Shown: positions 9,140 to 61,100 of the stretch, one piece after another
Numbering within the stretch: the stretch's first letter is position 1
Layout of the letters: every line of letters begins with the position of its first letter
Origin: Ligustrum vulgare
Lineage: Eukaryota > Streptophyta > Magnoliopsida > Lamiales > Oleaceae
Reading direction: 5' to 3'
NCBI GenBank assembly: GCA_963555705.1
Contig: OY743181.1
Span: 30,198,513 to 30,262,512 of the forward strand
Length of the DNA: 64,000 nt
Program-made: the position numbers and the translations under genes
Notes under the pieces: generated by a model
Told to the model about the DNA's origin: nothing
Database searches by the model: none
Seen by the model: only the letters and a program-made list of their open reading frames with translations

Positions 9140-10788
9140 TGTTGAGTGCATTTTACATGTACATTTCATTTATTTTTGGTGGCACTTTTTGAGTAATTTG
9201 GACAAATATCTATTTAATTATGCATATTTTGTGGTTAAATAGGTTCAACAATCAACTTCATGGAGAAAGCACAAGAAAGGAGCTAAATGAATGAATAATT
9301 GAAGAAATTAAGGAGAAAATAGTCAAATCCTTCAAAGAGTCAAAGTTTGGGGACCAAATTGTTACTCCCGAAAAGTGGTGGATCACATGTACAATTGATC
9401 GAAGGACTAAATTGTAAGTTTCCAAAGTTGACGGACCTAAAGGCACTTTTGAAAGGGCTCAACTGAAAGTGATCAGAAACTTTGGGGATCAAGTTGATCT
9501 ACACTGAAAGTTGGAGGACCCAATTGTTGATCATTGAAAGACGGAGCTTCCAGATGAACCACGCGATCGTGTGGCTCTTACAAGTTGCGTTCGCGAGATA
9601 GGCCAAAAATTCAACCCGAGACTCACAAGGCCAACCACGCGATCGCGAGGCATTCTACCATGCGATCGTGTGGTCAAAATATAGAGCGATAATCTAGGAC
9701 GACCTAGTGCAACCCGGTTCTGCCCAAATGCTGTTATACGCGGATCTAGCGATTTGGGGGGTTTTTGAAGTGGTTTTGGCTAGTTTTTGAACCATTCCTC
9801 CCCCCTTTTTTAAGTCAAGAAACCCTAGCTCTCTCTTTCTCTTTTATTTTATCTCTTTTTATCTTGTAATTTCCCTTGTAAGTTGTATAGTTTTGTTGAT
9901 GAATATTGATTTGGGGAGAAATACCAACATTAATGTGGAAGAATAGTGATATTTTGAAGCAAGAATCATTGGTGAAGGGAAGTGTTTTTACTTAATCTTC
10001 ATATTTCTCTATTTATTTTACTTCATAGTTGAAATGATGTATTTAATTCTTGAATTTTATTATTATTTCACTATGGGCTAAACTATTTTGTGTTGGGATG
10101 TTGATGAAGCTTGATCTAGCTTAGTTGATTTTAATGCTTGTATTAAGAATTTAAACTTTTTATTATCTTGTGCATTTATTGTTGTATTTATTGACTAACA
10201 TTTATTGTAGCCACATTTATGCTTATGTTTCATGAGATGTGCAATTATTGAGAAATTGTTGTGTATTCTAGATCAATACAATAGTTGCTCTAGGTTCTTG
10301 TTTAGAATAGAGATATACCTAAAACCCTAGATGACCCATTGAGCTATTTTTACAAAGGTTTAATGTGATTGGTGTGTTTTTAATCGACATAGAGATATAG
10401 TAGGTTAATGCCACTAATTAGGGTAGATTTCACTCGAGAGAGGTAATTGGCTAAGCTTGGAAATTCGGGTCTAACATGATTAATGAATTGTATTTCTATT
10501 TGCTTGTGATAATTCAATTAGGTAATGGTCAAGTGGAATCAAGAATCCCGACACTCCTTTATCATCTATTCATCAGCATTTTTCTAGTTATTTATTTACA
10601 ATTGCAACTTTAATTCTAGTACGAGAACATTCCCAAACAAATCTTTATTGTGTGTGTTTCTTGTTAAAATTAATTATATTAGAGTGTAGTTGAAATAGAC
10701 AATCCTTGTGGGATCGATAAATCGGACTCAATTAGTCCACTATCACTTGTATGCGACTCGTGCACTTGCGGTGTGTTTGTAACGAACA
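9140..10788 (+). mobile_element. Athila-type solo LTR
   Basis: The block starts TGTTGAGTGCATTTTACATG and ends GTAACGAACA. It matches the 5' LTR of the Athila element at 32770 along its length, including the U3 phrase 'gaccaaatt', CpG-rich palindromic boxes (9559-9673) and the block 'tccttgtgggatcgataaa' near 10700. No gag/pol follows. The downstream ATTGGCAGGGATG could be a deleted remnant of the TGGCGCC...GGGGATTG primer site. ATTGG also occurs just upstream (9131-9135), but 4 bp away from the LTR edge, so the TSD is uncertain. Length is 1649 bp. Confidence 0.8.
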
Positions 10789-11393
10789 ATTGGCAGGGAT
10801 GTTTATTTCAAAAAAGGTAAAAGTCGGGATGAAATTGTCAAAAAAGCAAAGATAGAGATGAATTTTGCAAGAGAGTCTAAATGATAGGACATTTTATGCC
10901 AAATATCATTTCTAAAAATTAATTGTGCTACTGTAATTAAAAGTAGACGGGTTTGGAGAAATTTTTTTTGTCATAATCAAGTGTTGTGCATGGTAATCCA
11001 TGGCTTATAAAGTTGGTCAAATATACTATTATATACATATTTCTGCTCACAACTTACTAATTTACACGTTCTGTAGAAAAAAAAAATTATAAACACTTGG
11101 AAGAACGACGACTCAAGCAATATGGGGCAATTTGGCGTGCAACCATCTTCAACATTTTCCACGGAAATGGAAAATGCTTTCAATGGAATTTAATAAGGAA
11201 TCCGTTCGATTGCACTTTCATTGGGTGTAATTCATTTTTCACCTTATCTCGATCTCCGTAATTTCCTTGAAAACAAGGAAATATTTTCCTCGGGGAGGTT
11301 GAGAAATCATTGTTACATTTACTAATTTCAAATATCAATTCCACTTTTAATCAAACATACCAAAATTCCTTGATTTTTGTTTTTTACGAAAAT
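10789..11393. other. Intergenic sequence, nothing recognised
   Basis: A minus-strand frame of 68 codons at 10977-11183 has a plausible N-terminal half rich in Cys and Ser. It resembles no family I know, and composition does not favour coding. Confidence 0.4.
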
Positions 11394-14680: not shown

Positions 14681-15754
14681 TTAAATAACCAATCTGAAAG
14701 TGTTGTATATCCCATTCCAGAACCACTAGTGGCTGATGAACCAAATTGTAGTTGACTTTGATTCGGTTCAACGAACCCGTGCTTTGGCTGACACTTGCGA
14801 TAGTGACGGTTGAGGTGTGTAGTACCAATCCCCTTTGTCCATGCCAATTTTTGTGCACAATATTTGCACACAACTTTGAATTCATCTTCTCCTTCAATTT
14901 TTTCCCCGTTGCGACTAATTTAAAGTGATCCCAATACTTTGAAGTTGGCTTCTTACCTTTTCTAGCTTTTCTTTTTTCCTTTTGCGTCAGGAATATCCAG
15001 ATCATTTTGTAAGATTTGAACATCCGTATCTTCTTCAATATCGTCCAAATCGATTCGCTGATTTAATGGATCTTCAATATTGTCGGGAATTGGTACGTCG
15101 TTGAGATCGAAAAATTGATCGTAGAAATGAGCGTGAGATTGTGGTGTTGAGTCATCATGCCCCCCAAATCCAGTTGGACCATCAAACAATTCATTAACAA
15201 ATCTTCGGCTGTTGGGATCCATTCTTTTGTATGTGATGTGGTGTGGAAAAATTGAAATATAAAATGAAATATGTGTAATTGAGAGATATAATGACAAATT
15301 GAGATATTGAAATTGAAATATCAAATATGTAACTAAGAGATATTGAAATTGAAATATCAAACTTGTAGTATATTTGTAATGTAAAATTGTAGAAAATAGA
15401 GTAAATGTAGTAGAGTATAGAAGAGTAGAGTGTAGTGTAGAATAAGAATTAGAGTAATTTAGAGAGTTGTAGTAGATGTAGTAGAATTGTAGAAATAAAA
15501 TTGTGTTGTCTTAAAATTTTTTTTTTTCTTTTTGGAAACGGTGTGATCGTTTCAAAAAAAAATTTCTTTGTTTTTCAACGAGCCCGCGAGCCGCTCGGCT
15601 CGCAGGCTCGTTGAGCTCATTGGCACGAGCCACTCGTTGAACCAAGAGACGAGCTTGGCTCGGCTCGTTGTTCAACAATGTTGATTGGCTCGCCCACGAG
15701 CTCGTTCATTTGACTAGCCGAGCCTCCCTCGGCTCGACCCGTTTGCCACCTCTA
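14680..15754 (-). mobile_element. hAT (Ac-like) transposon, 5' half only
   Basis: On the minus strand the element begins TAGAGGTGGCAAACGGG, a classic plant hAT terminus. About 200 bp follow that are packed with GGCTCG/CGAGCC words in both orientations (15580-15740), typical subterminal transposase-binding sites. Then come a promoter-like AT-rich stretch with short repeats (GATATTGAAATTGAAATATC, 15300-15360) and the start of a transposase gene. The rest of the gene and the 3' end are missing at the junction with the Athila LTR. Confidence 0.8.
14690..15222 (-). pseudogene. hAT transposase N-terminus with BED zinc finger
   Basis: The start codon at 15222 opens MDPNSRRFVNEL, followed by an acidic segment. 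After a frameshift near 14990 comes SKYWDHFK and a Lys-rich stretch. After a second shift near 14880 comes CKYCAQKLAW...GTTHLNRH...C. The pattern W-x2-F then C-x2-C...H-x4-5-C/H is the BED-type DNA-binding finger at the N-terminus of Ac-like hAT transposases. The RNase-H-like catalytic region is absent. Two frameshifts and the truncation make this inactive. Confidence 0.75.
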
Positions 15755-20122: not shown

Positions 20123-20127
20123 TGATG

Positions 20128-21470
20128 TGTTAAGTGCATTTTTATACACTTTTTATACTTTTAAATTAACATCTTTTGGAATATCTTGAGCAAATATCTA
20201 TTAATTTATGCATTTTTTGTATTTAAATAGGTAAATATCCAAGTTTGGGGCCAAAAATTACAAAATGAGTGCAAATTATGCTGAAATTGGAAATTTGAGG
20301 ACCATTTTGTCACTTTTGAAAAGTTCTGGACAAGTTGCGCAATTAGCCGATGGACCAAATTGCAAGATTCCAAAAGTTGAAGAACCTAAAGTGCAATTTT
20401 AGAAGGACATATTTGAAATAAATCGGAAAATTTGGGGACTTAATTGATCATCATTGAAAGATGAAGGACCTCATGGAAATTATAAAAGGACTTGGCTGCA
20501 AAGACCATGGCTCGGCTGAATCATGCAAAAGCGTGGTCTGATCAGAGCCGCGCGCGCGAACCATGGCTCGAAACGGACCCGGGACCAAACTTGGTCCCAG
20601 ATTTTTCGCCACTCGATCGCGCGGTGTAGCACTAAGCGATCGCGTAGTTATTAAAAAAAAAAATTCTTTTTTTTCAGGTCAACCCGGTTCAGCCCATTTC
20701 GCCGTGTACGCGGATTTGTGGGTTTGTTAGGGTTTTTGGTTGATTTTTGGGATGATATAAATACCCAACTTCCTCACTTTGCAAAATCATGTAAGTCTTG
20801 CCCCTTTTCATTTTTCTTTGTATTTTGCTCTCTACTATGTTTCTTTTAGTGCATTTAAGTTTTTAAATTATTGTGCTTTTACTTGCTTTGTTTAATTTCA
20901 AGCTTATTATTGTTGTTGAAATTTCATTATTAATCTTTTAAGTTAGTTTGTTGTTAAATGTTTTTGTTACTTTATTATGAGCTTATTTTGTTTATGGGCT
21001 AAATAGTATTTTGTAGGGATGATTGGTGTTACTTAACTTCACTTAGTTATTTTAAGCTTGTTTATGTATTTTGAGTTATTTACTTTCAAGCATTTGAATT
21101 TATGATTATTGTCTTTTAATATAGTGTACTTTGATTTATGTTTATTGTCTTGCATTTGTCTATCTTAAGTAGCTAATTTTATATACAAAATTACAAATTA
21201 ATTAAGTGGTGTTTGAGTGAAATCATGAATCCCAACTTTTTAATATTTCATTTTCTTTATTGTTGTTAGAATTTAAAGTTAGTTTGTTTATGTATTATTT
21301 TCACTAAAAAAAATCCAAAAATTATTGTGTGACTCTGTTGTTAAAATTAAATTAACTAGCCTGTGTAATTGAGTATACATTCCTCGTAGTTTCGACAACC
21401 CGGATTCAAAAAGTCTACTTTATTACTTGAACGCGACCCGTGCGCTTGCAGTCCACGATTTTAGCGAACA
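20128..21470 (+). repeat. 5' LTR of the non-autonomous element
   Basis: The LTR is 1343 bp with TG...CA ends. It contains U3 text shared with the Athila LTRs ('gaggaccattttgtcac'), CpG-rich boxes (20520-20650), and a TATA box TATAAATA at 20756-20763. An R/U5-like region ends at 'gcgcttgcagtccacgattttagcgaaca'-type sequence. It differs from the 3' LTR by small indels and substitutions, so the insertion is not brand new. Confidence 0.9.
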
Positions 21471-21476
21471 AGTTTT

Positions 21477-21494
21477 TGGCGCCGTTACCGGGGA
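21477..21494 (+). promoter_or_regulatory. Primer binding site, tRNA-Asp type
   Basis: TGGCGCCGTTACCGGGGA begins 6 bp after the LTR end. It is complementary to the 3' end of plant tRNA-Asp apart from one A for G. This is the primer class used by Athila and Tat gypsy lineages. Confidence 0.85.
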
Positions 21495-21662
21495 ATGTTT
21501 TTACTTGATTGCCACTTTAATTAAGTTTAGTTTTAACAATTTTATTTTATGTTTTATTTTGCTACCTTTGGTTAACCATTATCATTTTAATCTTTCTTAT
21601 TTTTGGTTTTCCTTTTATGTATGCATGATTCTAACATTGGTAAAGTAGGAAAGATTTTTGCA

Positions 21663-22430
21663 ATGGACAATCTTTACATGGGTAATGAATATATGCTTGG
21701 AGAATATTCGAGTTGTGAAATTTGTTACAAGGTGCATGATAATGGACAATGTTTGTATTCGGGCAATAATTTGTTTATGTCGAACCTTCTTGCATTTAGA
21801 CAATATTTGAATTTTCGAAAACAGACAATTGACACGTCCGATGCTAGTTACATGCTCTTGGGAGATTGTGTACCAGAAGATTGGGATGAGGACATTACTC
21901 TTATAGGAGAGGGTCCTCCATTTTTGAATGAAAATGTCCTTGCAAAATATTACAATGAGCTTGCCAAGTTGGATGAAGATGATATGCTTATGGAAGATAC
22001 CATAGTTTGGGAAGGATTTAAAATATGGGGGTATGATCCACTCTTGGGGATAAATAGGAAAAACTTGTCATTGCCCATGGATTCGAATTTTGGATTGGTC
22101 ATTCAATCCGAGGAGATATCAACTATTGAAGATGAGCTTGAAGAGAATGACAAGTTAATCACAAAAGAATCACAAGGGGAAGTGTCAGTTAATGAGGATG
22201 AGATTAAGTCACATTCTCTCAACTTCATTGATTGCCCAACAATTGATTTTGTGATTAAGACACTTGAGGAGGAACAATTCTACATAGTTGAATTTGAATT
22301 GGATGAAGTAGGCAAGCCATATGACATTGGAAGGGGCAATGTGCAAGTTTGGAGAATCAATGAAGAGTGGAACAAAGTCAAAAGAAGAAAAATGGGCGAA
22401 GTATCAAAAGCTTCATTTAAAGTGTCATGA
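21663..22430 (+). CDS. Unfamiliar acidic protein of the non-autonomous LTR element
   Basis: The protein is about 255 residues and I do not recognise its family. The start at 21663 (MDNLYMG) is preferred over an in-frame ATG at 21603, because the second copy of the protein (42502, minus) begins at the same place. Features, by residue: CEIC near 19-22, a CxxC pair kept in both copies; FRQYL near 45; IDTSDASYML near 55-64; CVPEDWDEDITL near 68-79; AKYYNELAKLDED near 90-102. The C-terminal half is Glu/Asp-rich and ends in a short Lys/Arg-rich tail. There is no zinc knuckle, aspartic protease, RT or integrase motif, and no clear membrane span. It occupies the gag position, so a packaging or RNA-binding role is possible but unproven. 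The frame is open throughout. Confidence 0.7.
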   Translation: MDNLYMGNEYMLGEYSSCEICYKVHDNGQCLYSGNNLFMSNLLAFRQYLNFRKQTIDTSDASYMLLGDCVPEDWDEDITLIGEGPPFLNENVLAKYYNELAKLDEDDMLMEDTIVWEGFKIWGYDPLLGINRKNLSLPMDSNFGLVIQSEEISTIEDELEENDKLITKESQGEVSVNEDEIKSHSLNFIDCPTIDFVIKTLEEEQFYIVEFELDEVGKPYDIGRGNVQVWRINEEWNKVKRRKMGEVSKASFKVS

Positions 22431-24241
22431 AGTGCTTATGCAAAAAGTCGAGTTTATGACTTTAACCAAGTGCTTTTTAGGAGGCACCCCAAATTTTTTC
22501 TCTTTTGCTTTACTTTACTTCTTTACTTTCTTTTTAATTATTTGTCAAACTTTTGTAGGTAACAAATATTTTTGAAAATCCTAAGAGACATTGTCTTCAA
22601 CAAATTTGGGGGTGAACTACATTCGGCGAAAGCTTATGTCAATTTCAAACATCACAAGCAAGCATCAAATCAGGATAAGTTTTATTAACTCTTTTCTTCT
22701 TTACATATTGTTTCTATTTTCACATTGAGGACAATGTGTAATACAAGTTCGGGGGTTTTGACTTCATTTTGCACTTTATCATATTAGATAACCTAGCCGG
22801 CTTAAGATGTTGTGATGTTTGATTTTGTTCCTTTTATTTTGGATATTAACATGCTAGATAGCCTTGTCGGCTCAAAATGATTTGATATTTGAAATTGCTG
22901 ATTAATTCACGAATTATGATCGAATATACTACTTGTGCCTATTTTTTTATCAATTACTTATCTATGAGTGATCCTAAGTTCTCTTGAGCACAATAGTCAT
23001 AACTAATTGTTGTTGAGATTTGGAATCTATTGAAGTTCGGAGAAATTCGTGAAGTAGAAAAATTAGGTTGTGAGCTTGCATTTTCAATTTTTATCAACCT
23101 ATCCAATTACTTTTCAATGCTCTTAATCTCTTGATCCTTTGTGAGACAAATTTGGGGGTGGTCAATCCGGTAAAGGAAACGGTCTAGATGCGTAGTGATT
23201 CCATGCATGCTTGATATGAATTTGTGTGGAGTGTTGTTGACGTTAAGTATAAGCTAAGTGATGACCAAATGCTAGAGATCTAAGCCCATTTTAATTATTG
23301 CATTGCCCTATCTCGTAGCCTTTTTGACTCGAGTAATTAAGCCTGTTGGAGTATCTTGAAACTTGGTGCCTTAAGTTTGAAACTTGGGAGTCACCGGTCT
23401 AAAGCTCGCTATATGGGTCAATTAGAAAGCTTAAGGAGTAGGGTACACACACACACTTTGAAAAAAAAAACATACCATCATCATTTCCTTTGCTCAATAA
23501 GTCTACCTCACTTCATAGCCTTTTTTACTAAAGTTATTAAGTCCGTAGGGGTATTTTGAAACCTGGTACCCTTTGATCTTAAAACAATCGAGGAGTTGCC
23601 GACCTAAAGCTCGCTACATGAGTCAATTAGAAAGCTTAAGGGAGTGGGGAAGTCAAGAACAATCATCACATTAGTTTGTAGAAATCATGCATTTGTATTT
23701 ACATAAGGGCTTAGATTAATAGTGGGTTTGAATTGCTTGGTATAAACTTTAATGTTGAAGTACTCATCTAGTGGAGAGTCACTGCATAGCTAGATTGTTG
23801 AGATTACCGGTAAGTCACAACCAAGCTTTAGTGGAAAAAGAAATGTGTGAATTGAGAGTTATCTCTAGGATGGCATCTCGGGAGAGAAAAGAAATAATTT
23901 GGGGGGATGAATGATACGAGAGGGACATGATTGAAATTGACCACTAAGGGTGGATAGTATTGTTTTTTATCCTTCCTACAATGTTTCTTTGAACCTTAGT
24001 GATAATTGGAGTGACTATGCGCGCGCACGCGCGCACACACACACACCGATCAAACATGAGATAAGCTCAACTTCTTTTTGTAGTATTATTTTGAAAATAT
24101 AATTGTGAATTAATCATGCAATTTTACACTCAAGCAAGGATTTGCAAGTTCTCTAGCATTGTTTATCACTCATTCATCCGTACTTATTATGCTAGTAGAT
24201 ACTCTTGCTCGAGACGAGCAAGAGTTTAAGTTTAGGGTATT
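22431..24241 (+). other. Long 3' untranslated interior of the non-autonomous element
   Basis: About 1.8 kb carries no recognisable protein. It contains repeated phrases: GATAACCTAGCCGGCTTAAGAT at 22788-22809, similar text at 22855-22876, and two copies of an approximately 190-bp unit with AAAGCTCGCTA...GTCAATTAGAAAGCTTAA near 23400 and 23605. 'aatttgggggtg' words at 22601 and 23149 resemble the purine-rich text found before Athila 3' LTRs. A GCGC/ACAC tract lies at 24019-24047. Confidence 0.6.
24019..24047. repeat. Alternating GC/AC microsatellite
   Basis: A run of alternating purine-pyrimidine (GCGCGCACGCGCGCACACAC, continuing) about 28 bp long, a composition able to form Z-DNA. It lies about 195 bp before the 3' LTR. 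Confidence 0.9.
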
Positions 24242-25605
24242 TGTTAAGTGCATTTTTATACATTTAAATTAACATATTTTGGAATATCTTGAGAAAATAT
24301 CTACTAATTTATGCATATTTTGTGTTTAAATAGGTTAATATCCAAGTTTGAAGCCAAAAATCACAAAAGAAGTGCAAATTATGCTGAAATTGGAAGTTTG
24401 AGGACCATTTTGTCACTTTCAGGAAGTTCTGGACGAGCTGCGCAATTAGCCGAGGGACCAAATTGCAAGATTTCAAAAGTTGAAGGACCAAAAGTGCAAT
24501 TTTAGAAGGAGTTATTTGAAAGAAATTTGAGAATTTGGGGACTTAATTGATCATCATTGAAAGATGAAGGACCTCATGGAAATTACAAAAGGACTTGGCT
24601 GCAAAGACCATGGCTCAGCTGAACCACGCGAACGCGTGCTCTGATCCGAGCCCCGCCTGCGAACCATGGCTCGAAACGGACCCGGGACCAAACTTGGTCC
24701 CGGATTTTTGGCCGCGGGATCGCGTGATGTAGCACCGAGCCATTGCACATATTAAAAAAAAAAAAAAATTTGGGTCAACCCGGTTCTGCCCATTTCACTG
24801 TGTACACGGATTTGTGCGTTTTTTAGGGTTTTTGGTTGATTTTTGGGATGATATAAATACCCAACTTCCTCACTTTGCAAAATCATGTAAGTCTTGCCCC
24901 TTTTCATTTTTTTCTTTATATTTTTCCTTGTATTTTGCTCGCTACTTTGTTTCTTTTAATGCATTTAAGTTTTTAAAGTATTGTGATTTTACTTGCTTTG
25001 TTTAATTTCAAGCTTATTATTGTTGTTGAAATTTCATTATTAATCTTTTAAGTTAGTTTGTTGTTAAAATGATTTTGTTAGTTGTTAAATGTTGTTGTGA
25101 CTTTATTATGAGCTCATTTTGTTTATGGGCTAAATAGTATATTGTTGGGATGATTGACGTTACTTAACTTCACTTAGTTATTTTAAGCTTAATTATGTAT
25201 TTTGAGTTATTTACTTTCAAGCATTTGAATTTATGATTATTGTTTTTTATTATTGTGTACTTTGATTTATGTTTATTGTCTTGTATTTGTCTATCTTAAG
25301 TAGTTAATTTTATTTACAAAATTTCAAATTAATTAAGTGTTATTTGAGTGCAATCATGAATCCCAACTTTTTAATATTTCATTTTCTTTATTGTTGTTAG
25401 AATTTAAAGTTAGTTTGTTTATATTTTATTTTCACTAAAAAAAAAATTCAAAAACATATTGTGTGACTTTGTTGTTAAAATTAAATTAACTAGAGTGTGT
25501 AATTGAGTATACATTCCTCGTGGGGATCGACAACCCGGACTCAAAAAGTCCACTTTATTACTTGAATGCGATTCGTGCGCTTGCGGTACACGATATTAGC
25601 AAACA
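24242..25605 (+). repeat. 3' LTR of the non-autonomous element
   Basis: The LTR is 1364 bp and nearly collinear with the 5' LTR. TATA box TATAAATA at 24852-24859, CpG boxes at about 24625-24735. It ends GCAAACA, immediately followed by the TSD TGATG. Confidence 0.9.
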
Positions 25606-25821
25606 TGATGTAAAATGAGTAAATTATGTCAAATAAATGTGATCAATTTAACTAATTGTTAATTAAAAAATAACTATGAGAAAAATACTAGACCAAGAAG
25701 CAATGCAGGGAAACAGAACAAATGAAACCAAATAGTTGAAGAATGGAAGAAAATGAAATGAGCAAAATTTCTCACCAAAAGTAAATCAGGGGTTTTGTAA
25801 AAAGCCCTCATCTAAAGAACA

Positions 25822-26493
25822 TGTTCGCTATAAATACACCGCAAGTACACGTGTCGCATACAAGTAATATTGGACCAGTGAGTCAGGTTTATCAATCCCA
25901 CGTTGATTGTCTATTCTAATTACACTCTAGTGCGATCAATTTCAACAATAAACATACACACAATAAAGTTTTGATTCTGAAAATGTGATAGACTTAAAAC
26001 TAAATCCACAATAAATTAATTAGCTAAATGGAAAATAAGGGATGAATTGATGATAAAAGAGAGTTGAGATTCTTGATTCCACTTTACCTTCACCTAATTG
26101 AGCTTTCAACACACAAATTGAAATGTCATTTACTATCATGTTAAATCCGATTTTCCAAGTTTAGTTAATTTCCTCTCTTGAATGAAATTAACCCTAATTA
26201 GTGGAATTAACCTGTTATATCTCTATATCGATTAAAAAAACTCAATGGATCATCTAGGGTTTAAGGTATATATCTATCATTAACAAGAACATAGAGCATT
26301 TATTGTATTGATCTAGAATATACAACAATTTCTTAATAATTACACATTCCATAAAATCCAAGCATTAATTTGGCCAAAATAAATGAAAGACAATAAATAC
26401 AACAATAAATGTACAAGACAACAAATAACTTAAATTCTAAATGCAAGCATTAATATCAATTAAACTAGGTTAAGCTTCCTCAATCATCCCAAC
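25822..26493 (-). mobile_element. Athila-type LTR, 3' half, minus strand
   Basis: The inverse of this block ends TATAGCGAACA and contains the Athila LTR phrases 'ggattgtctatttcaat', 'cctagatgatccattgag' and a GGTCAA...ATTCTTGATTCC-like region in inverted form. It is cut at 26494, where a chromovirus LTR begins, so the rest of this LTR was displaced by that insertion or lost later. Confidence 0.7.
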
Positions 26494-28917
26494 TGTTACG
26501 CCCTAGGTTCCGTAGAACGGGGGACGCCACCTTGTCCTTTATAACTAACTTTTGAATAAAATTTTGTTGCGGAAATAGCTAAAATTTAAACATCACATTC
26601 ATTAATTGATAATTTATAACTATAACTCAAATTAAAACAAATTTATTTGAAACAATTTATGAAATCCCAAATCTCAACAAAATGAAATAACCAGATTCAA
26701 TAAAAGTGACTTTCAAAATAACTTAAATTAAAGATTTACCACCACTACCTTTCATTTTCCACCGTCTCCGATATCTGTAAATGCTGTTAAAATAACGGGT
26801 GAGCATTTTGAAAGATATACTCAGTAGACTCTTCGCCAATAATTAATTTACAAAATAATTAAACACGTAATCATGCAAATAATACAGTGACATTCTCTTC
26901 TTAATCATAAGTATCACATAGTGAGTGCAAATGAACATATTCTTGTCTTGTCTCGTGCAATAAAACATATAAGTTGTGACATGTATAACATAAATTTCTC
27001 ATTTTATCTCATAAGAGATATTCTTGTCTTATCTCATGCAATTAAGCATATAAATCACGTAAATTCACAAAATACATTCAATTATAATTTAAACTAATTA
27101 GTGGGGGCGAGTGTACCTCAAACTTAACGAATTCACAAAAAGTGGAGCGGGAATAGGACGTCAATCTCTTGATTCACCAAATGTTTCGTCTAGCCAAAAG
27201 AAAATTAATTTAGATTAGTACATTCGAAATTAAAGTTTAAAGTGACAAAATAAAACTTGAGGAATAAATTTTAATTTTAAAGAAATTGGAAATTTGAAAG
27301 TATAGGACTGAAAATGTATTTTCAAAACTTAAGGGTTGATTAGAAGTATTTTAAAACTCAATAGGGGCATACTGATATAGCTTAAAACTACAGGGGCGGA
27401 ACAAAACGTTTTAAAAATTGAAAGGACTGAAATAACATATTTTTGAAACTTGGGGTTTAAAAGCAATTTTCAAAACTTAAAAAAAAAATACTCCCTCCAT
27501 CCTACAAAGATAGGCCTGTATACTATTTTCGTCCGTCCCATAAAGATAGGTCACTTACCATATTGAGCATGTATTTAATTTTTCATTTCCTCATATGCCC
27601 CTAATTAATGTACCTTGGTAATAATCCAAATCAACTACCTTGACATTTAGTTTGAATGAATTAATGAGTCTTTGGAATTAGTATAGGGGTATATTTGAAA
27701 AAGTATAGATAAATTTATTATTTCAACTATATTAACTACCATTTCTTAATCTGTGTGAAAATGGGAACATGCCTATCTTTGTGGGATGGAGGAAGTACAA
27801 GATAGATACATATCATTTCGGGTGACGAGTCCTCCGATTCCACCTCCGACTGAAGGGTCGGCGATAGTGCCACCGTCATGTGGTAGCTCCGGTGTATGGG
27901 TGAAGTGGCTGGGGTGGATTTGGTGTCTTTTGGCAGAAATAGCTGAGGCTAGGAGGTTCGAATTTGGGTGGTTTCTCCTGCGGCAATCCAGCTAGAAATG
28001 GGTTGGGGTTGAGGTAAGGTATGGGTTATTTTGATTCTTAGGTTTTTGGGTTGTTTTGGTGAATTTGAGGGTGATTTTGAAAAGGACATTGGAGGTTTGG
28101 AGGCTGGTTTTGCTGGTGGTGTGTGAGAGGTTTGTCCTTCCCAGGTTTGTGGGAGTGGTTTTGAAATCTATAGTTGAAAAATCGGTTTGGTAGTGTGGTG
28201 ATGGAGTTCAGATTGTGGGAGGTGTGGTTAGGTGATGAAGGTGGAGGTGGAGGTTTGGGTGATGGTGGAACTAGTGTCAGTGGTCGTGTGGCTGCCGTGG
28301 AGTAGTGTTAGAGAGGAAAAAGTTCATACTGCTGGATTTTGTGGTGTCGTGAGTTTTTGAGGGGGAGTATATGTTGTTGGTTGTTTATTAATTTTGGGTA
28401 AAATGTGGTGACTTCTGGTTTGGTAAATGTTGAGGGAATATGCAAGGAGATAATGGCTGAATGAGGGAACTGAGGGAGAGGTTAAAGGGATGCAGATCAG
28501 TTATGGGCGTGTGAGGGGGGGTGGATTTTTGGAAATAATAATCATCCATGAATGGATAGAGCTAGTGACCTGGAAAGAGAGAATTTCTGGGAAGAAACAA
28601 AAAAAAAAAAACGTGGAGAGTTGTAGTAATATTTGGGCTTATGGGGTTGGGTTGGGTTGAAATAGTTTGTACTCAAAATAATTTAAATTTGGACTTAAGA
28701 TAATTAACACTTGGACTTAAAAAATAATAATTTGTGATCTTGGAACACTTTTCATAAATTTTGGAATTTGAAAAAGATTAAAAATAAATTTAATTCACTT
28801 AATCATGGTTAGACGAATACTCTTTTAAAATAAATGAGAGAAGTCGTAGCGACACGTCTTTAAAGATTTTTAAATATTTTATTTAAAAAAAGTAACGAAG
28901 AATTCCTAATCACTACA
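26494..28917 (-). repeat. 3' LTR of a chromovirus (Tekay/Del-like), minus strand
   Basis: On minus the LTR starts TGTAGTGATTAGGAATTC next to a polypurine tract and ends CTAGGGCGTAACA. Start, end and body match the solo LTR at 47440-51009 and the LTR piece at 41198. Length is 2424 bp. A Stowaway element is inserted at 27491-27795. The Gly/Val-coding plus frame at 27786 is chance within this LTR. Confidence 0.8.
27491..27795. mobile_element. Stowaway MITE (Tc1/mariner)
   Basis: The ends are CTCCCTCCATCCTACAAAGA and, inverted, CTTCCTCCATCCCACAAAGA, the classic Stowaway terminus. The dinucleotide TA flanks both sides (27489-27490 and 27796-27797). Length is 305 bp with no coding sequence. Confidence 0.95.
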
Positions 28918-34525: not shown

Positions 34526-35675
34526 ATGCGTCGAACTAGAAGTCTTGATCTAGTTGAATTATATCCGGATATCGAGGGAACTTTTCGATGTAGACTAAGG
34601 GAACGACGGGAAGCTAGGAGACAACTTCATATTGATATGGAAGGAGAAAGAGTTAACAACGAGCTTAATGCTCCACCGCAATTCCTCCAAGGGGTGGAAT
34701 CCCACCCGGTTTCAATCCTCAAGCGGCTAGAGTTCAAGAGCCTGTGGTTAATGAAGAAGACATGCTATTTGGGGATTTCATGAATCTCCCTATTGTTGAT
34801 AATCAATCAAGCATTGTCAATCCTTCCTATAATTATCCAAATTTTCAACTTCAGCCGGATGTCATCAATTTGTTCTCCAACACTAGCTCATTCTATGGGA
34901 GGACCGATGAGAATCCACATGGACATGTGGCACGCTTCCTTGAGATTTGTCGCAACTTCAACTATGAGGGTGTGAATGTGGAAGCAATTCAGATGATATT
35001 ATTTGTGTACACCTTGAAAGACAAGGCAAGAGAATAGTTTGAGACTATCACCGGGGAGCATCACTACTTGGGCGGAATTTGTCCAAAGATTTACTAAAAA
35101 AAAATTCCGCCTTCTAGAGTTGCTAAACTCAAGCATGACATTACTACATTTCAACAATTCGAAATGGAGAGTTTTCATGAAGCTTGGGAGAGATTCAAGG
35201 ATATGCTTAGGAAGTGTCCAAATCATGGGATCACATTGGGGCAACAAGTCAACCACTTCTACGCCGGGTTAACTTCTCCTTGTCGTTCAAATGTGGACTC
35301 ATCTTCTAACGGGTCCAACAAAACAAAGAGCATTCGAGAGGCTTATGATTTGTTTGAGTTTATGAGTGAACAAAGTGCAATGTGGTCGGATAAAGATGCA
35401 CCAAGGAGTTCTAGTGGTGCACGTGGGGGTGATGATTACTTCAACCTCTCGGCCCGTCAACATTGTTCAAACCCCTCCGGTATATGAATTATGTGGGGCT
35501 AATCATCAAAGTTCAATGTGTCCATTGGTGGCAAGTGGTTCTTCATCTACCGAGCAAGTTGCTTATGCTCAAAATTTTCAACGCCAAGGGTTCAATCCAT
35601 ATTCTCCTACCTATAATCCCGGCTGGAGGAGTCATTCCAATCTATCTTATGGCAACAATTAAAATGTATTGAATC
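34526..35675 (+). pseudogene. Athila gag
   Basis: The frame starts MRRTRSLDLVEL, like Athila gag N-termini. After frame changes it shows the retrotransposon gag core: FYGRTDENPHGHVARFLEIC, SITTWAEFVQRFTKKKF, FHEAWERFKDMLRKCPNHG, VNHFYAGL. A zinc-knuckle-like segment, YELCGANHQSSMCP, follows near 35485-35525. The first Cys of the expected C-x2-C-x4-H-x4-C motif is missing. A TAG at 35035-35037 replaces the usual Trp, and at least two frameshifts occur. Gag would form the virus-like particle; this copy cannot. Confidence 0.85.
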
Positions 35676-36473: not shown

Positions 36474-36523
36474 AGATCTGTAATACCTTGACTAAGAAAA
36501 CTTAAAAGAAATGATAGATACTA

Positions 36524-36639
36524 CTCATACCAACAAGATGCACCTTCTTTTTCGGAAGTCCATCGTTAGAAACTCCACAGTTAAGCGTGCTTGGCTTGGA
36601 GAAATTTTGGGATGGGTGACCTCCCGGGAAGTTTTCTCG
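36524..36639 (+). other. 5S rRNA-derived domain in the 5' LTR of Cassandra
   Basis: CTCATACC, ACTCCACAGTTAAGCG and GATGGGTGACCTCC follow the order and spacing of plant 5S rRNA. The Pol III A box (AAGCGTGCTTGG, 36583-36594) and C box (GATGGGTGACCTCC, 36611-36624) are intact. It is LTR sequence, not a functional 5S gene. Confidence 0.9.
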
Positions 36640-36948
36640 GGGAGCATGCGAATGAGGACAAAGCATGCTGAAAAGACTCATGTTGGTACAGTGGGGACAG
36701 TACGTCGTCATCTAATGGCCGGGACAGCCAGTTAAGTGGGACCCGGGTCGTTACAAATGGTATCAGAGCCGGCCGCTAGCAGGAATCGGGAACTAAGTGC
36801 TACGTCATAGGGCGGGAGCCACCTCTAGAATCCCAACGCCTGACAACAGATCCTCAGATGGGTTAAGCGCGACGAGGACGTCGCAAATCTAACAGTGGGT
36901 GATTATAATACCCCGACTAAGAAAGCTTAAAAGAAATGATATGTACTA

Positions 36949-37064
36949 CTCATACCAACAAGGTGCACCTTCTTTTTCGGAAGTCCATCGTTAAAAACTC
37001 CACAGTTAAGCGTGCTTGGCTTGGAGAAATTCTGGGATGGGTGATCTCCTGGAAAGTTTTCTCG
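36949..37064 (+). other. 5S rRNA-derived domain in the 3' LTR of Cassandra
   Basis: Same domain as in the 5' LTR. The A box is unchanged, but the C box reads GATGGGTGATCTCC with one C-to-T change, and GGGAAGT has become GGAAAGT. Confidence 0.9.
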
Positions 37065-37185
37065 GGGAGCGTGCGAGTGAGGACAAAGTATGCTGAAAAG
37101 ACTCGTATTGGTACAGTGGAGATAGTACGTCGTCATCTAACGATCGAGACAGCCCGTTAAGTGGGACCCGGGTCCTTACAAGATC

Positions 37186-41194: not shown

Positions 41195-41197
41195 CAC

Positions 41198-41845
41198 TGT
41201 AATGCTCCGAGTTCTGTAAAACGCAAGGACGCTACTTTGTGCTTTATAACTAACTTTTGAATAAAAATTTGTTGCGAAAATAACTAAAATTTAAACATAC
41301 CATTCATTAATTGATAATTTATAATGATAACTCAAATTAAAATAAATTTATTTGTAACAATTTATGAAATCCCAAATCTCGACAAAATGAAATAACCAGA
41401 TTCAATAAACGTGACTTTCAAAATAACTTAAATTAAAGATTTGCCACCACTGCCTTTCATTTGCCATCATCTTCGAGATCTGCAAATGTTGTTAAAATAA
41501 TGGGGTGAGCATTTCGAAATAAATACTTAGTAGACTCATCTCCAATAATTAATTTACAAAATAATTAAACATGTAATCATACAAATAATACAGTGACATT
41601 CTCTTCTTAATCATAGGCATCACATAGTTAGTGCAAATGAACGTATTCTTGTCTTGTCTCATGCAATAAATCACTTAAATTCACATAATACATGCAATTA
41701 TAATTTAAACTAATTAATGGGAACGAGTGTACCTCAAACTTAACGAGTTCACAAAAAGTGGAGCGGGAATAACACATCAATCTCTTAATTCACCAAATGC
41801 TTCGTCTAGCCAAAATAAATTTAAATTAAATTAATACTTTCGAAA
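41198..41845 (-). repeat. 5' LTR (3' part) of a chromovirus-type element, minus strand
   Basis: The inverse ends CGGAGCATTACA. Blocks match 26494-27240: TTTATAACTAACTTTTGAAT, GATTCAATAA, GTGACATTCTCTTCTTAATC, TTCGTCTAGCC. About 1.7 kb of its 5' part is missing at the junction near 41845 with an inverted copy of the unfamiliar-protein element. It could pair with the LTR at 26494 as one element or be a close relative. Confidence 0.75.
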
Positions 41846-41849
41846 TTAT

Positions 41850-42502
41850 TTGTCTTTTTCATCCGTTCAAATTCCACTTTGAAGACTTCTATCTCCTCAT
41901 CGGGTTTAATCATGAAATCAATTCCTTGACAATCAACCAAGTCAAAACAATGTAAGTTGATTTTCTCCTCATTGATGGTCACATCTTCATTTAGCTCCAT
42001 CGTGATTGACTTTTCATTCTCTCCAAATGTTTCTTCAATAGGTGACTTATCTTTAGATTGGATGACTAGTCCTTCATTAAGTTCCAAAGGAAATGGAGAA
42101 TCTTTCCTATTAATTTCCACGAATGGATTATACCCCCACTTTTGAAATTCACCCCCAATACATGGCATCTTCCACAAGTATTTTATCTTCATCCAACTTG
42201 GCAAGCTCATTGTAGTACTTTGCAATTACCTTATCATCTAATAGTGGAGGACCATCTCCCACAAGAGTGATGTCCTCATCCCAATTTTTTGGTACACAGT
42301 CTGCAAAGAGCATGTAACTTGCATCCGATGTGTCAATTGCTTGTTGTTGGCATTTCAAGTATTGTCTAAACATAATAAGTTTTGACTTAATTAAACTATT
42401 TCCAGCATCCAAGTATTGTCTATTATAATGCATTTTGTAACAAAATTCACAACTTGGATATTCTCCAAGCGTGTCTTCATAATCCATGTGGAGATTGTTC
42501 AT
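41850..42502 (-). pseudogene. Homologue of the unfamiliar LTR-element protein, frameshifted
   Basis: From 42502 the frame opens MNNLHMDYEDTLGEYPSC and runs 117 codons, then shifts near 42150 and continues KWGYNPFVEINRKDSPFP to about 41850. By hand alignment 74 of the first 116 residues match the protein at 21663. Strongest blocks: FRQYL, IDTSDASYML, CVPxxWDEDITL, AKYYNELAKLDED. The CxxC pair (CEFC) is kept; the third nearby Cys is not. The C-terminal acidic section is also recognisable. One frameshift and the truncation make it a pseudogene. Confidence 0.8.
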
Positions 42503-42550: not shown

Positions 42551-42567
42551 AGGAAGGTAACAGCGCC
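42551..42567 (-). promoter_or_regulatory. tRNA-Asp-type primer binding site of the second copy
   Basis: On minus TGGCGCTGTTACCTTCC follows GCGAATAAGATTT. It matches the site at 21477 with a few changes at the 3' side. Confidence 0.75.
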
Positions 42568-42573
42568 AAAATC

Positions 42574-44442
42574 TTATTCGCTAACAGCAATTGTACGAAT
42601 TGCACAAGTATTAAAGTGGATATGAGTCTGAATATCGTTCCCATGAGGATTGTGTAAATTGTATTTTAGACTAATTACCTTAACCGGAATAATAGAAATT
42701 TGATTTGAATTTGGAATTTTTGAAATAACTAATGAATATAAATAAACAAGTTTGAACAATTAAAATAATGAGAAAAACATACTAGAGTCGAGAATCCATT
42801 TTACTTCCATCATTTATGCATTGATTTACATGTCTAACTACAATTCATGAGGTTTTGAAAATCATGTTCCTATTCTTATCAGTGTTTAGAAAACCAGATC
42901 GAATCGGCCGGTTTAACCTGAAAAATCGAGAACCTGTCCATAAATTGGTCCGGTGCGACCTAAAAATCGGTCATTTAAAAACCAAACGGAAAACCCGATT
43001 TTTGGCCGATTCAACGAGGAAAATCGGGAATCAGCCGATTTTTAAACCCGTTTTTCCAGTTTTTTTCTGCCTTTTTTGTTTTGGTTTTTTTTTTTGTTTT
43101 CCTCAAGTTATTTTAAGCTACTTTTGTGAATTATTTTATTTTCTAAATAAGTAAATCTTGGTTTATTTGTAAAATAACTTACTTTTTAAAGAATATTTTA
43201 TGATTTTTTAAATAATTTTTAATTTTTTAATTGAAACTGGTTCGACCCTGATTCAACCCGGTCGGACCTTTTGAACTTTGATCCGTTGCCTTTTTCGTTC
43301 GAACTGGTTTCCGATTTTCTAAACATTGATTCTTATTGAAACCCTTTCGGAAGGTGAATTAAAACATTTTCCTACAAGGGATCCGGCTATATTTCTATGA
43401 TGAATTCAAACATATAAGAAAACATTATCATTTTGTGAACACTATTTGGAATTACACAAAGCATAGGGGTATATTTCTATCCTCTATCGAACTTCGTGGA
43501 AATTAAAACATGTATAATGTAATCCTAATCTTTCTAACTTAGAAAAACACCACAAAAACCATAAAATAAATGACCAAATAATCATATATGATAATAAAAA
43601 CACGAATTAATTGCTTAAACCCATGAATCATATATATTAAACAATAAATAAAAACATAAAATCAGAAAAGTAAAATATAATCACGACTCTAACATAACTA
43701 ACTATCCTAGATACATAATTGAAAGAATAAATAAACAAGAAGATTTCATGGAATTCATTACCCTGATGTAGAAATTAATCTTATTGAGGGAGAGATCTTG
43801 AATTTGATGTAGATCTTGATATGTGCCTCCTCTTTCTCTCAATTATTATATAGAATGTGGTGTCTAACCTAACTCCCCTCTTTTGTTGCCCATGTAGTCT
43901 CTTATATAGATGAAATTAGGTCAAAATCATGTCAAAATTGGGTTGCGAAAGGGTCCTAATCAAATAAGGAAAGTAGAACTCCCGTCGTCTTTGCACAGCT
44001 GTCAGTATTTTGATCATATCTTTCTATTCGCTTATCCGATTGAGGTGATTCAAAATGAGTTGTAAATAAAACTCAAAAGAATAAAATTCTCCCTGAAATA
44101 CAATTTTCCTAATTTGAACGTTTACCACCCCAAACTTATGTCACAAATATATGGTAATATTCTTTTCATATTTCATTCCTTTTTTACTTCTAATTGCATT
44201 CAATTGACTCCTAGCAACCTTCAAATATCACAGTGTAGTCCGAATCAACCATTGAATATTTGCACTTTGGTCCTTCTTCATTTGATTCATACACTTTAGT
44301 CCTTAAACTTTTGAATTCACTCGACTTTGGGATATTTTTGAAATATAAACAAATAATAACTAGATCAATAGCAAATATTCTAAAACGATGACAATAAATC
44401 CTTCTTCTAGCATGAAAATAAGTGTATAAAATATACTTATCA
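42574..44442 (-). repeat. LTR of the second copy
   Basis: On minus it starts TGATAAGTATATTTTATACAC and ends GCGAATA. Without the inserted hAT element it is about 1.41 kb, close to the 1.34-1.36 kb of the first family member. U3 phrases such as 'aggaccaaagtgcaaat' are shared. Confidence 0.75.
42880..43328. mobile_element. hAT-type MITE (449 bp)
   Basis: The ends are CAGTGTTTAGAAAACC and, inverted, CAATGTTTAGAAAATCGG. The perfect 8-bp TSD is ATTCTTAT (42872-42879 and 43329-43336). Same family as the element at 16591-17380, but without the promoter-like module. Subterminal GGCCGG/CCGATT words are repeated. No coding sequence. Confidence 0.95.
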
Positions 44443-59439: not shown

Positions 59440-59721
59440 GAAGTACTTTAGACTCTTATGGTCAGTATAAATCTCACACTTGCTCCCATAAAGGTAGTGA
59501 CGCTAAATCTTCAGAGTGTGAACTACCGCTGCAAGTTCGAGATCATGTGTCGGATAATTCTTCTCATATTGTTTCAATTGTCTTGAAGCATAGGCGATCA
59601 CCTTCCCATGTTGCATCAAAACACAACCCAACCCGAGTTTTGACGCGTCACTGTAAATAACAAAACCTTTTGAACCATCCGGTATAGCTAATACTGGTGC
59701 TGAGACCAATTTGTCCTTCAA
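59440..59721 (-). pseudogene. Chromovirus RNase H
   Basis: On minus: [68 protein letters not shown], then after a stop YTDHKSLKYFF. The catalytic Asp of YSDAS and the Glu of DLELAAVV are present. Confidence 0.88.
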
Positions 59722-60740
59722 CTGTGTTCACACTTTTCGGACCATACAAACTTAACACCCTTTCGATTTAGCCGCATCATAGGACCAGCTATATTGGAAA
59801 ATTCTTCTATGAAGCGCTGATAGTATCCGGCTAAGCCTAGAAAGCTTCTCACTTCACCCATGTTCACAGGTCTTGACCAATTAGTCATCGCCTCTACCCT
59901 GGATGGATCAACTCCAATTCCTTTAGATGTCACAACATGACCCAAAAATCCTACTCGATCAAGCCAATATTCACATTTCTTAAATTTGGCATATAACTTC
60001 TCCTCAAGTAGGGTTTCCAGAACTATCCTCAAATGTTTTTCATGCTGATGAGCATCCTTTGAGTATATCAATATGTCATCAATAAATACAATGACGAACC
60101 TATCAAGATACTTATGGAAAACTCGATTAATTAAATCCATGAATACCGCATGAGCATTAGTCAAACCAAAGGGCATTACTATAAACTCATAGTGCACATA
60201 ACGAGTTCTAAATGCAGTTTTTGGTACATGAGTTGGCTTAATCTTCAATTGATGGTAGCTTGACCTCAAGTCAATCTTTGAAAATACCTTTGTACCCTTT
60301 AATTGATCGAATAAATCCTCAATCCTAAGAAGGGGATACTTATTCTTGATCGTCAATTTGTTCAGTTCACGATAGTCGATATACTTCCTCATTGTACCGT
60401 CCTTCTTCTTTACAAAAAGTACCGGAGCTCCCCACGGGGACACACTCGGTCTGAAGAATCCTTTGTCTAGAAGTTCCTCCAGCTGCATTTTCAACTCTTG
60501 CAGTTCCTTTGGTGCCATTCGATATGGAGCCTTGGATACTGGTGCTGCTCCAGGAACCAAATCGATTGTGAATTCCACTTGCCTATCTGGTGGAATACCC
60601 GGTAGATCATCCGGAAATACATCGGCATACTCTCGTATCACCGGCACGTTTTCTAATTTTGTCTCAACTGATGGGGTTCCAGTAAGGTTGACAAGATAGC
60701 CTTGATAGTAAGGCTTCTTCAATAATCTCTCTGCCTTCAA
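59718..60740 (-). pseudogene. Chromovirus reverse transcriptase
   Basis: A 340-codon open frame. In order it contains [89 protein letters not shown], the catalytic [10 protein letters not shown] and [11 protein letters not shown]. Some usual residues have changed (DLRSGYH is SSYH; TNAPA is TNAHA). The frame ends at CEHS, where a frameshift leads into RNase H. Reverse transcription would need the missing domains, so it is inactive. Confidence 0.92.
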
Positions 60741-61100
60741 AGCTGATATGAGGCGAGGGAGTGTCTTATATTTGATCCATAAAATCTGAACTCATCTTCA
60801 CTGTTTCTTCGAAAAATCACTTCTTTCTCAAAACATAAAATTGTAGCCCAATTACTACCCAACAAGTCCATTCCCAAAATGATATCGAAATCTTTCATTT
60901 CTATAACATGCAAGTCTACTTCTAATGTTAATCCATCGAAATCTATCGGTATTGCCTTAGCTATTCTATTTGTATCAATAGTTCCCCCTGATGGCATACT
61001 AACCTCAAGTATACTATCAATTTTATGACACGAAAAATTAATCTTAGCTAGGCATGCATCAGATATGAACGAATGAGTTGCACCAGAATCAATATGAACG
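60737..61100 (-). pseudogene. Chromovirus aspartic protease
   Basis: On minus, HIDSGATHSFISDACL carries the catalytic D-S-G near 61092. It is followed by MPSGGTIDTNRIAK and, after about 50 residues, IILGMDLLGSNWA, the C-terminal signature. The protease region itself is open; upstream a stop lies near 61155. The frame changes at about 60740 before the RT. Confidence 0.85.

Follow-up and report, generated by a model that had tools for sequence, protein, structure and literature searches.

A probable Athila-type non-autonomous LTR retrotransposon of Ligustrum vulgare with an orphan reading frame in the gag position

The closest described counterparts of the element reported here are plant long terminal repeat (LTR) retrotransposons. 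In wheat, RLG_Sabrina_NA2-8 elements carry unique open reading frames (ORFs) for short proteins in place of gag-pro, four of them without homology to other wheat proteins, and their likely autonomous partner is RLG_Wilma, the wheat homologue of BAGY2 (PMC9744471); BAGY2 is listed under Athila (PMC6317226). Arabidopsis Athila families that lack pol retain gag, or gag and env, ORFs under purifying selection (PMC2410132). The soybean element Diaspora, an Athila relative whose gag carries the motif CX2CX4HX4C, has, like Calypso, a tRNA-Asp primer site that starts 5 bp after the LTR (PMC1142308). Why elements without pol should keep a selected coding frame is a question that has been posed for both Arabidopsis Athila and wheat RLG_Sabrina. 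Here we describe, in a 64,000-nucleotide stretch of the Ligustrum vulgare genome (contig OY743181.1, positions 30,198,513 to 30,262,512; hereafter the window), a complete LTR element of about 5.5 kb at positions 20128-25605. Very likely the element is non-autonomous and its ORF selected, and we judge it likely to be a satellite-like retrotransposon of Athila type in which an orphan ORF, maintained by purifying selection, stands in place of gag-pol.

Structure of the element

The element is bounded by a perfect target site duplication (TSD), TGATG, and since it is also complete, it has transposed. By its paired LTRs, TSD and primer site it is an LTR retrotransposon; its parts, and the related loci in the window, are as follows.

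20123..20127, no strand: left copy of the TSD, TGATG, read directly from the sequence
20128..21470, plus strand: 5′ LTR, starting TGTTAAG and ending AACA, 91.5% identical to the 3′ LTR
21471..21662, plus strand: leader; its part 21472-21598 aligns with the corresponding part of the decayed gag-pol element, being identical at 91 of 125 aligned positions and having 11 gap positions
21477..21494, plus strand: primer binding site of tRNA-Asp type, 17 of 18 positions fitting the pattern used for scoring
21663..22430, plus strand: ORF of 255 amino acids in the gag position, the sole sizeable sense frame
21714..21752, plus strand: codons of the motif CX2CX3HX4C (residues 18-30), also present in the homologue P0002; the second copy has Tyr at the last position
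22431..24241, plus strand: 3′ region, lying between the ORF and the 3′ LTR and holding no long sense frame
24242..25605, plus strand: 3′ LTR, 91.5% identical to the 5′ LTR
25606..25610, no strand: right copy of the TSD, TGATG, read directly from the sequence
32770..about 40150, plus strand: decayed gag-pol element, presumably of Athila type and so of a type that could supply enzymes, in which remains of gag, protease, reverse transcriptase (RT), RNase H and integrase are recognizable
41866..42502, minus strand: second, decayed copy of the ORF, with one frame break near 42150 and the last compared residue at 41866
42556..42845, minus strand: remnant of an LTR end with primer site, immediately 5′ of the second copy of the ORF, recognized by alignment score

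The LTRs are complete but not young, since they are identical at only 1213 of 1325 ungapped positions, with 57 gap columns, a Kimura two-parameter distance (K2P) of 0.090 and, in a repeat alignment, 6 indel events. At the rate of 1.3e-8 quoted for wheat (PMC9744471) the element would be about 3.5 million years old, a figure which, the rate being borrowed, gives the scale only. Within the 3′ region there is a diverged internal duplication (23313-23443 and 23513-23649, 78% identical). The primer site starts 6 bp 3′ of the 5′ LTR. Shuffled sequence gave a mean of 0.00 matches to the tRNA-Asp-type pattern (100 shuffles, up to 3 mismatches allowed), and no tRNA gene for comparison was found within the window. 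An Athila post-pol motif at 22479-22492 did no better than chance, the window having 3 matches at 3 mismatches where 2.03 would be expected, and was not used. Neither the frame list nor Pfam shows any RT or integrase of the element's own.

The frame is open for 279 codons (21591-22430), the 255 amino acids being counted from the ATG at 21663. None of 2000 dinucleotide-based resamplings of the internal region reached 279 codons, the longest frame obtained having 226; no other plus-strand frame overlapping the element exceeds 91 codons, and a frame of 150 codons runs antisense to the ORF. An earlier sequence-only reading of this DNA had described intact LTRs, a tRNA-Asp primer site, the TSD and a single sizeable frame of about 255 residues in the gag position, all of which the present measurements bear out. 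It had mentioned neither the CX2CX3HX4C motif at residues 18-30 nor the second copy of the ORF at 42502-41866.

Second copy, homologues and selection

The second copy was found by tblastn and blastn, with DNA identity of 73.6% over 21594-22315. Its two pieces are 64% and 47% identical to copy 1 in protein sequence, and the two proteins are 56% identical over 210 residues. The similarity stops at 41850, where an unrelated LTR adjoins. Upstream, the remnant at 42556-42845 has an alignment score of 143, whereas none of 200 shuffles exceeded 71 (117 against 75 for its LTR part alone), and the order of LTR end, primer site and ORF is the same in both copies. A six-frame profile scan of the window placed only these two loci above the inclusion threshold, the next best having E 2.2, and none inside the gag-pol element. 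On the simplest view, this arrangement of LTR, primer site and ORF goes back to the common ancestor of the two copies, and we infer from this that constraint on the protein acted within the element lineage.

The LTR that adjoins the cut end of the second copy (41196-41848, minus strand) is followed by a TGGTATCAGAGC site, which we take to be a primer site of tRNA-Met type. Another copy of this LTR, 87-90% identical in the aligned parts, lies at 26507-27232, directly next to what remains of an Athila-type LTR at 25814-26493 (minus strand).

Between the two copies in the window the ORF has been under purifying selection. Over 210 codons there are 156 differences, distributed 55/30/71 among codon positions 1, 2 and 3 (p 1.8e-5); the Nei-Gojobori ratio of nonsynonymous to synonymous divergence (dN/dS) is 0.38 (bootstrap 0.25-0.58), and a value as low was obtained in 2 of 1000 neutral simulations. 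In one compared piece (piece a) the shifted forward frames gave ratios of 1.02 and 2.09 and the reverse-strand frames 0.36, 0.50 and 1.52. Because of the first two of these reverse-strand values, the ratio by itself does not pick out the strand; the low ratio is not specific to the frame, and the case for selection therefore also draws on the counts by codon position and on the existence of homologues. Survival of the frame was dropped as evidence, since at an LTR K2P of 0.09 an ORF evolving neutrally would be expected to have gathered 1.6 stops and 1.7 indels, and the neutral probabilities of zero stops and of zero indels are 0.19 and 0.18.

The 255-amino-acid ORF is a real gene. A protein search with the single sequence identified no homologue among 196 candidates at E up to 1, which we regard as a limit of sensitivity because a profile of the two copies later gave six homologues among 1850 candidates (E 1e-34 to 1e-89, 46-58% identity to the ORF), a number that is a lower bound. 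All lie on short contigs (longest 951-1780 bp) with the source labels jgi or lgn. P0002, of 256 amino acids, matches the ORF from end to end with the same start and stop. Copy 1, copy 2 and P0002, which alone among the alignment rows reach the N-terminus, share the start Met, assigned in our analysis for the two copies and by the database for P0002; the stop column is common to all four rows that reach the C-terminus (copy 1, P0001, P0002 and P0003). P0001 and P0004 start at an internal Met of the family, and P0003, P0005 and P0006 start further in. Copy 1 and P0002 have the whole CX2CX3HX4C motif, copy 2 keeps three of its four ligands, and the other five homologues do not extend to it.

The distance between copies 1 and 2 is about equal to the distance of either from the six homologues. 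For this reason the six could share a narrow plant source: they could come from related plants or even from one species group. The database searched does include some plant proteins, as a control search with the window's RT returned, among its best 120 of 7968 matches, sequences from Tanacetum, Malus and Prunus, for example. Two scans of viral contigs found no relative of the protein, and prokaryote genome contigs gave 19 pattern matches, none of them a relative.

The product, its likely enzyme donor and rival explanations

None of the nine alignment members exceeds the Pfam cut-off for gag, Athila ORF-1 or any other family; PF03732 (Retrotrans_gag) is absent from all nine at E up to 10, and none of the nine matches pfam03078 (Athila ORF-1, an env-like additional ORF). 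Sub-threshold Pfam matches to PF10237 (E 0.13-0.18) and, in one member, PF22728 (E 0.021) were taken as chance, as were matches in the PDB to LexA (E 1.6 and 1.7) and reverse gyrase (E 0.12-0.37). AlphaFold2 gave no usable model, with a mean predicted local distance difference test score (pLDDT) of 29.0 from 3 rows and 33.1 from 9. The earlier statement that the frame shows no gag, protease, RT or integrase motif holds for Pfam. Of the checks then proposed, the profile search yielded the six homologues and no Pfam gag, Athila ORF-1 or PDB match, and structure prediction was carried out but produced no fold that could be used. The proposal itself is borne out in part. That this is a non-autonomous LTR element encoding a conserved product of its own is supported by the second copy, the purifying selection, the homologues and the failure of any Pfam family, gag and Athila ORF-1 included, to match; the word "undescribed" is supported for the protein but not for the kind of element, which is already known.

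The window's decayed gag-pol element is presumably of Athila type, an assignment made from its primer-site type and gag motifs and not from a tree. Four of its seven scanned pieces match Pfam: PF03732, at 2e-10 in one decayed-gag piece; PF08284 (RVP_2); PF00078 (RVT_1) with PF17919 (RNase H); and PF17921 (integrase domain). The other three gave no match, and since these include the gag piece 35366-35659, which holds a knuckle-like string, Pfam is blind to that string here. The decayed gag carries YX2CX3HX4C, in which the X3HX4C spacing is that of the ORF motif. No 3′ LTR of this element was seen, and its end at about 40150 was placed by eye. As their alignments show, the LTRs and leader of 20128-25605 are homologous to those of the gag-pol element: identity of aligned positions is 74% in the first 400 bp of the LTR, 72% in its middle, 75% in its last 200 bp and 73% in the leader (56, 152, 9 and 11 gap positions, respectively), and for each alignment none of 200 shuffles scored as high. 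The aligned stretches cover most of the length of LTR and leader, the gaps being many in the LTR middle. Because LTR and leader align in this way, the element most likely used the Gag, RT and integrase of an Athila-type relative, and we are fairly confident that an Athila-type element mobilized it. In barley, RLG_Sukkula was suspected as the donor for RLG_Surya from homology of the LTR and primer-site region (PMC5738225).

Between its gag and protease remains the gag-pol element holds a 276-bp direct repeat (36481-36756 and 36906-37181, 91% identical). Two further LTRs of its type lie about 2.6 kb apart at 9140-10789 and 13349-about 14672; every frame in the sequence that separates them is shorter than 150 codons, and the pair is probably another non-autonomous or rearranged element.

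We suggest that the LTRs, primer site and leader of 20128-25605 would yield an RNA open to packaging, copying and insertion by Gag, RT and integrase from an autonomous relative, and that gag-pol has given way to one acidic protein of about 255 amino acids, of a family seen in several divergent sequences. The most likely role of such a protein would be that of an accessory in the gag position, associated with RNA or with virus-like particles (VLPs). The N-terminal CX2CX3HX4C hints at nucleic-acid binding; together with the basic C-terminal tail (about residues 221-255, charge +4.8) it might bind nucleic acid in such a way that the element's own RNA is favored for packaging or protected. A packaging or RNA-binding role is a tentative suggestion, to which we give distinctly less credence than to the classification of the element. 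It is unlikely, though worth stating, that the protein, derived from neither gag nor pol, serves a lineage of satellite retrotransposons as a dedicated trans-acting factor, guiding the particles of foreign Athila elements to the RNA that encodes it, and that elements lacking pol have long passed it on in more than one species of plant.

Several observations weigh against this account. The estimate of selection comes from a single pair of copies, one of them decayed, and two of the three reverse-strand frames of piece a also fall below 1. The window's gag-pol element is itself dead, so that it stands for the type of donor and not for the donor, and the lineage of 20128-25605 has no phylogenetic placement, as the element has no RT. 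As to the protein, its zinc-knuckle-like motif lacks the last Cys in copy 2 and has a spacing of X3 where Diaspora gag has CX2CX4HX4C (PMC1142308); comparison by hhalign of its profile with two window gag pieces finds nothing (probability 2.0% and 0.1%); and it is very acidic (isoelectric point 4.3, charge about -28), unlike a nucleocapsid.

Some of the same evidence bears on the alternatives. That the ORF is a remodelled, truncated gag, left in a TR-GAG-like Athila derivative as a knuckle and a fast-evolving rest after the capsid had drifted or been deleted, would agree with its gag position downstream of a homologous leader, with the motif in copy 1 and P0002 and its spacing, shared with the window gag, and with the ability of TR-GAG elements to transpose (PMC8704663); the Pfam negative is, moreover, weak on the knuckle, the string-bearing gag piece being unmatched as well. 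We nevertheless think it improbable, because PF03732, so clear in another decayed-gag piece, appears in no member, hhalign gives no support, and the motif would sit at residue 18, incomplete in copy 2 and spaced otherwise than in Diaspora gag. An origin as the extra ORF (eORF-5′F) of an autonomous Athila family, the present copy being a deletion derivative that has lost gag-pol, draws on the report of such ORFs in most elements of the Ogre/Tat/Athila group (PMC6317226). It is harder to accept, and we consider it quite improbable, given that the profile scan detects no such ORF in the gag-pol element, that the domains named for these ORFs (pfam10536, 04195, 03078) are unmatched, and that the one intact element lacks gag-pol; copy 2, ending at 41850, is uninformative.

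Host-gene capture has been reported for LTR elements (PMC7264820), and a host gene transduced by an Athila-type element could be carried passively while decaying; selection after the split of the two copies, the divergent homologues, none of which bears a host-gene name, and the lack of a Pfam match make this very unlikely. The acidic body and basic tail would also suit a nuclear regulator or silencing suppressor in place of a packaging accessory, and roles as regulators or as modulators of silencing have been suggested for other additional-ORF proteins of plants (PMC11963269, PMC11728184); as neither a domain nor a fold points to it, we hold such a function to be rather unlikely. The preferred reading is still that of a non-autonomous Athila-type element with a selected orphan ORF.

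Elsewhere in the window, the longest open frame, of 357 codons (59718-60791, minus strand), has a strong RT match (PF00078, 1.5e-29), and a frame of 182 codons at 14962-15510 (minus strand) has no Pfam match at E up to 1.

Comparison with known systems

A family of 255-amino-acid proteins with start and stop in the same place, two copies in one window and homologues beyond it offers a testable handle on the question of why pol-less elements keep a coding frame, by way of RNA binding, VLP association and cis preference. The element is not a LARD, a non-coding large derivative, as it has a selected ORF. Its architecture is already known, from RLG_Sabrina_NA and from pol-less Athila. Its protein family is apparently new, judged from Pfam, the PDB and literature text: five peptide strings of the protein had no match in a literature text search, and a survey of the literature that covered non-autonomous elements, Athila, extra ORFs and the motif, with plant repeat libraries outside its scope, found no description of the family.

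Like the TR-GAG elements (PMC8704663), the element has one sense ORF between its LTRs and no pol, but theirs encodes a recognizable GAG protein, whereas here neither a Pfam gag match nor hhalign supports one. It shares with the extra ORFs of Ogre, Tat and Athila elements (PMC6317226) an orphan ORF in a gypsy-type element that is not a chromovirus; those ORFs, however, occur in elements with polyprotein domains, and gag-pol is absent here. With Diaspora and Calypso (PMC1142308) it has in common a primer site of tRNA-Asp type a few base pairs past the LTR, as scored against the tRNA-Asp-type pattern, although Diaspora has a single gag-pol ORF. The pol-less Athila families of Arabidopsis (PMC2410132) come closer, consisting of LTRs and one or two ORFs, with no pol, with selection and with presumed mobilization in trans; their ORFs are recognizable as gag, or as gag and env, whereas the ORF here matches no gag family and was compared with env through Pfam only. 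The likeness to RLG_Sabrina_NA (PMC9744471) is that of a gypsy element whose gag region has been replaced by an unrelated ORF for a short protein, as is also found here. The wheat elements are longer, at 6.6-7.6 kb against 5.5 kb, and for the Ligustrum protein both selection and divergent homologues are shown, a test of which the parts of the wheat report consulted contain no counterpart.

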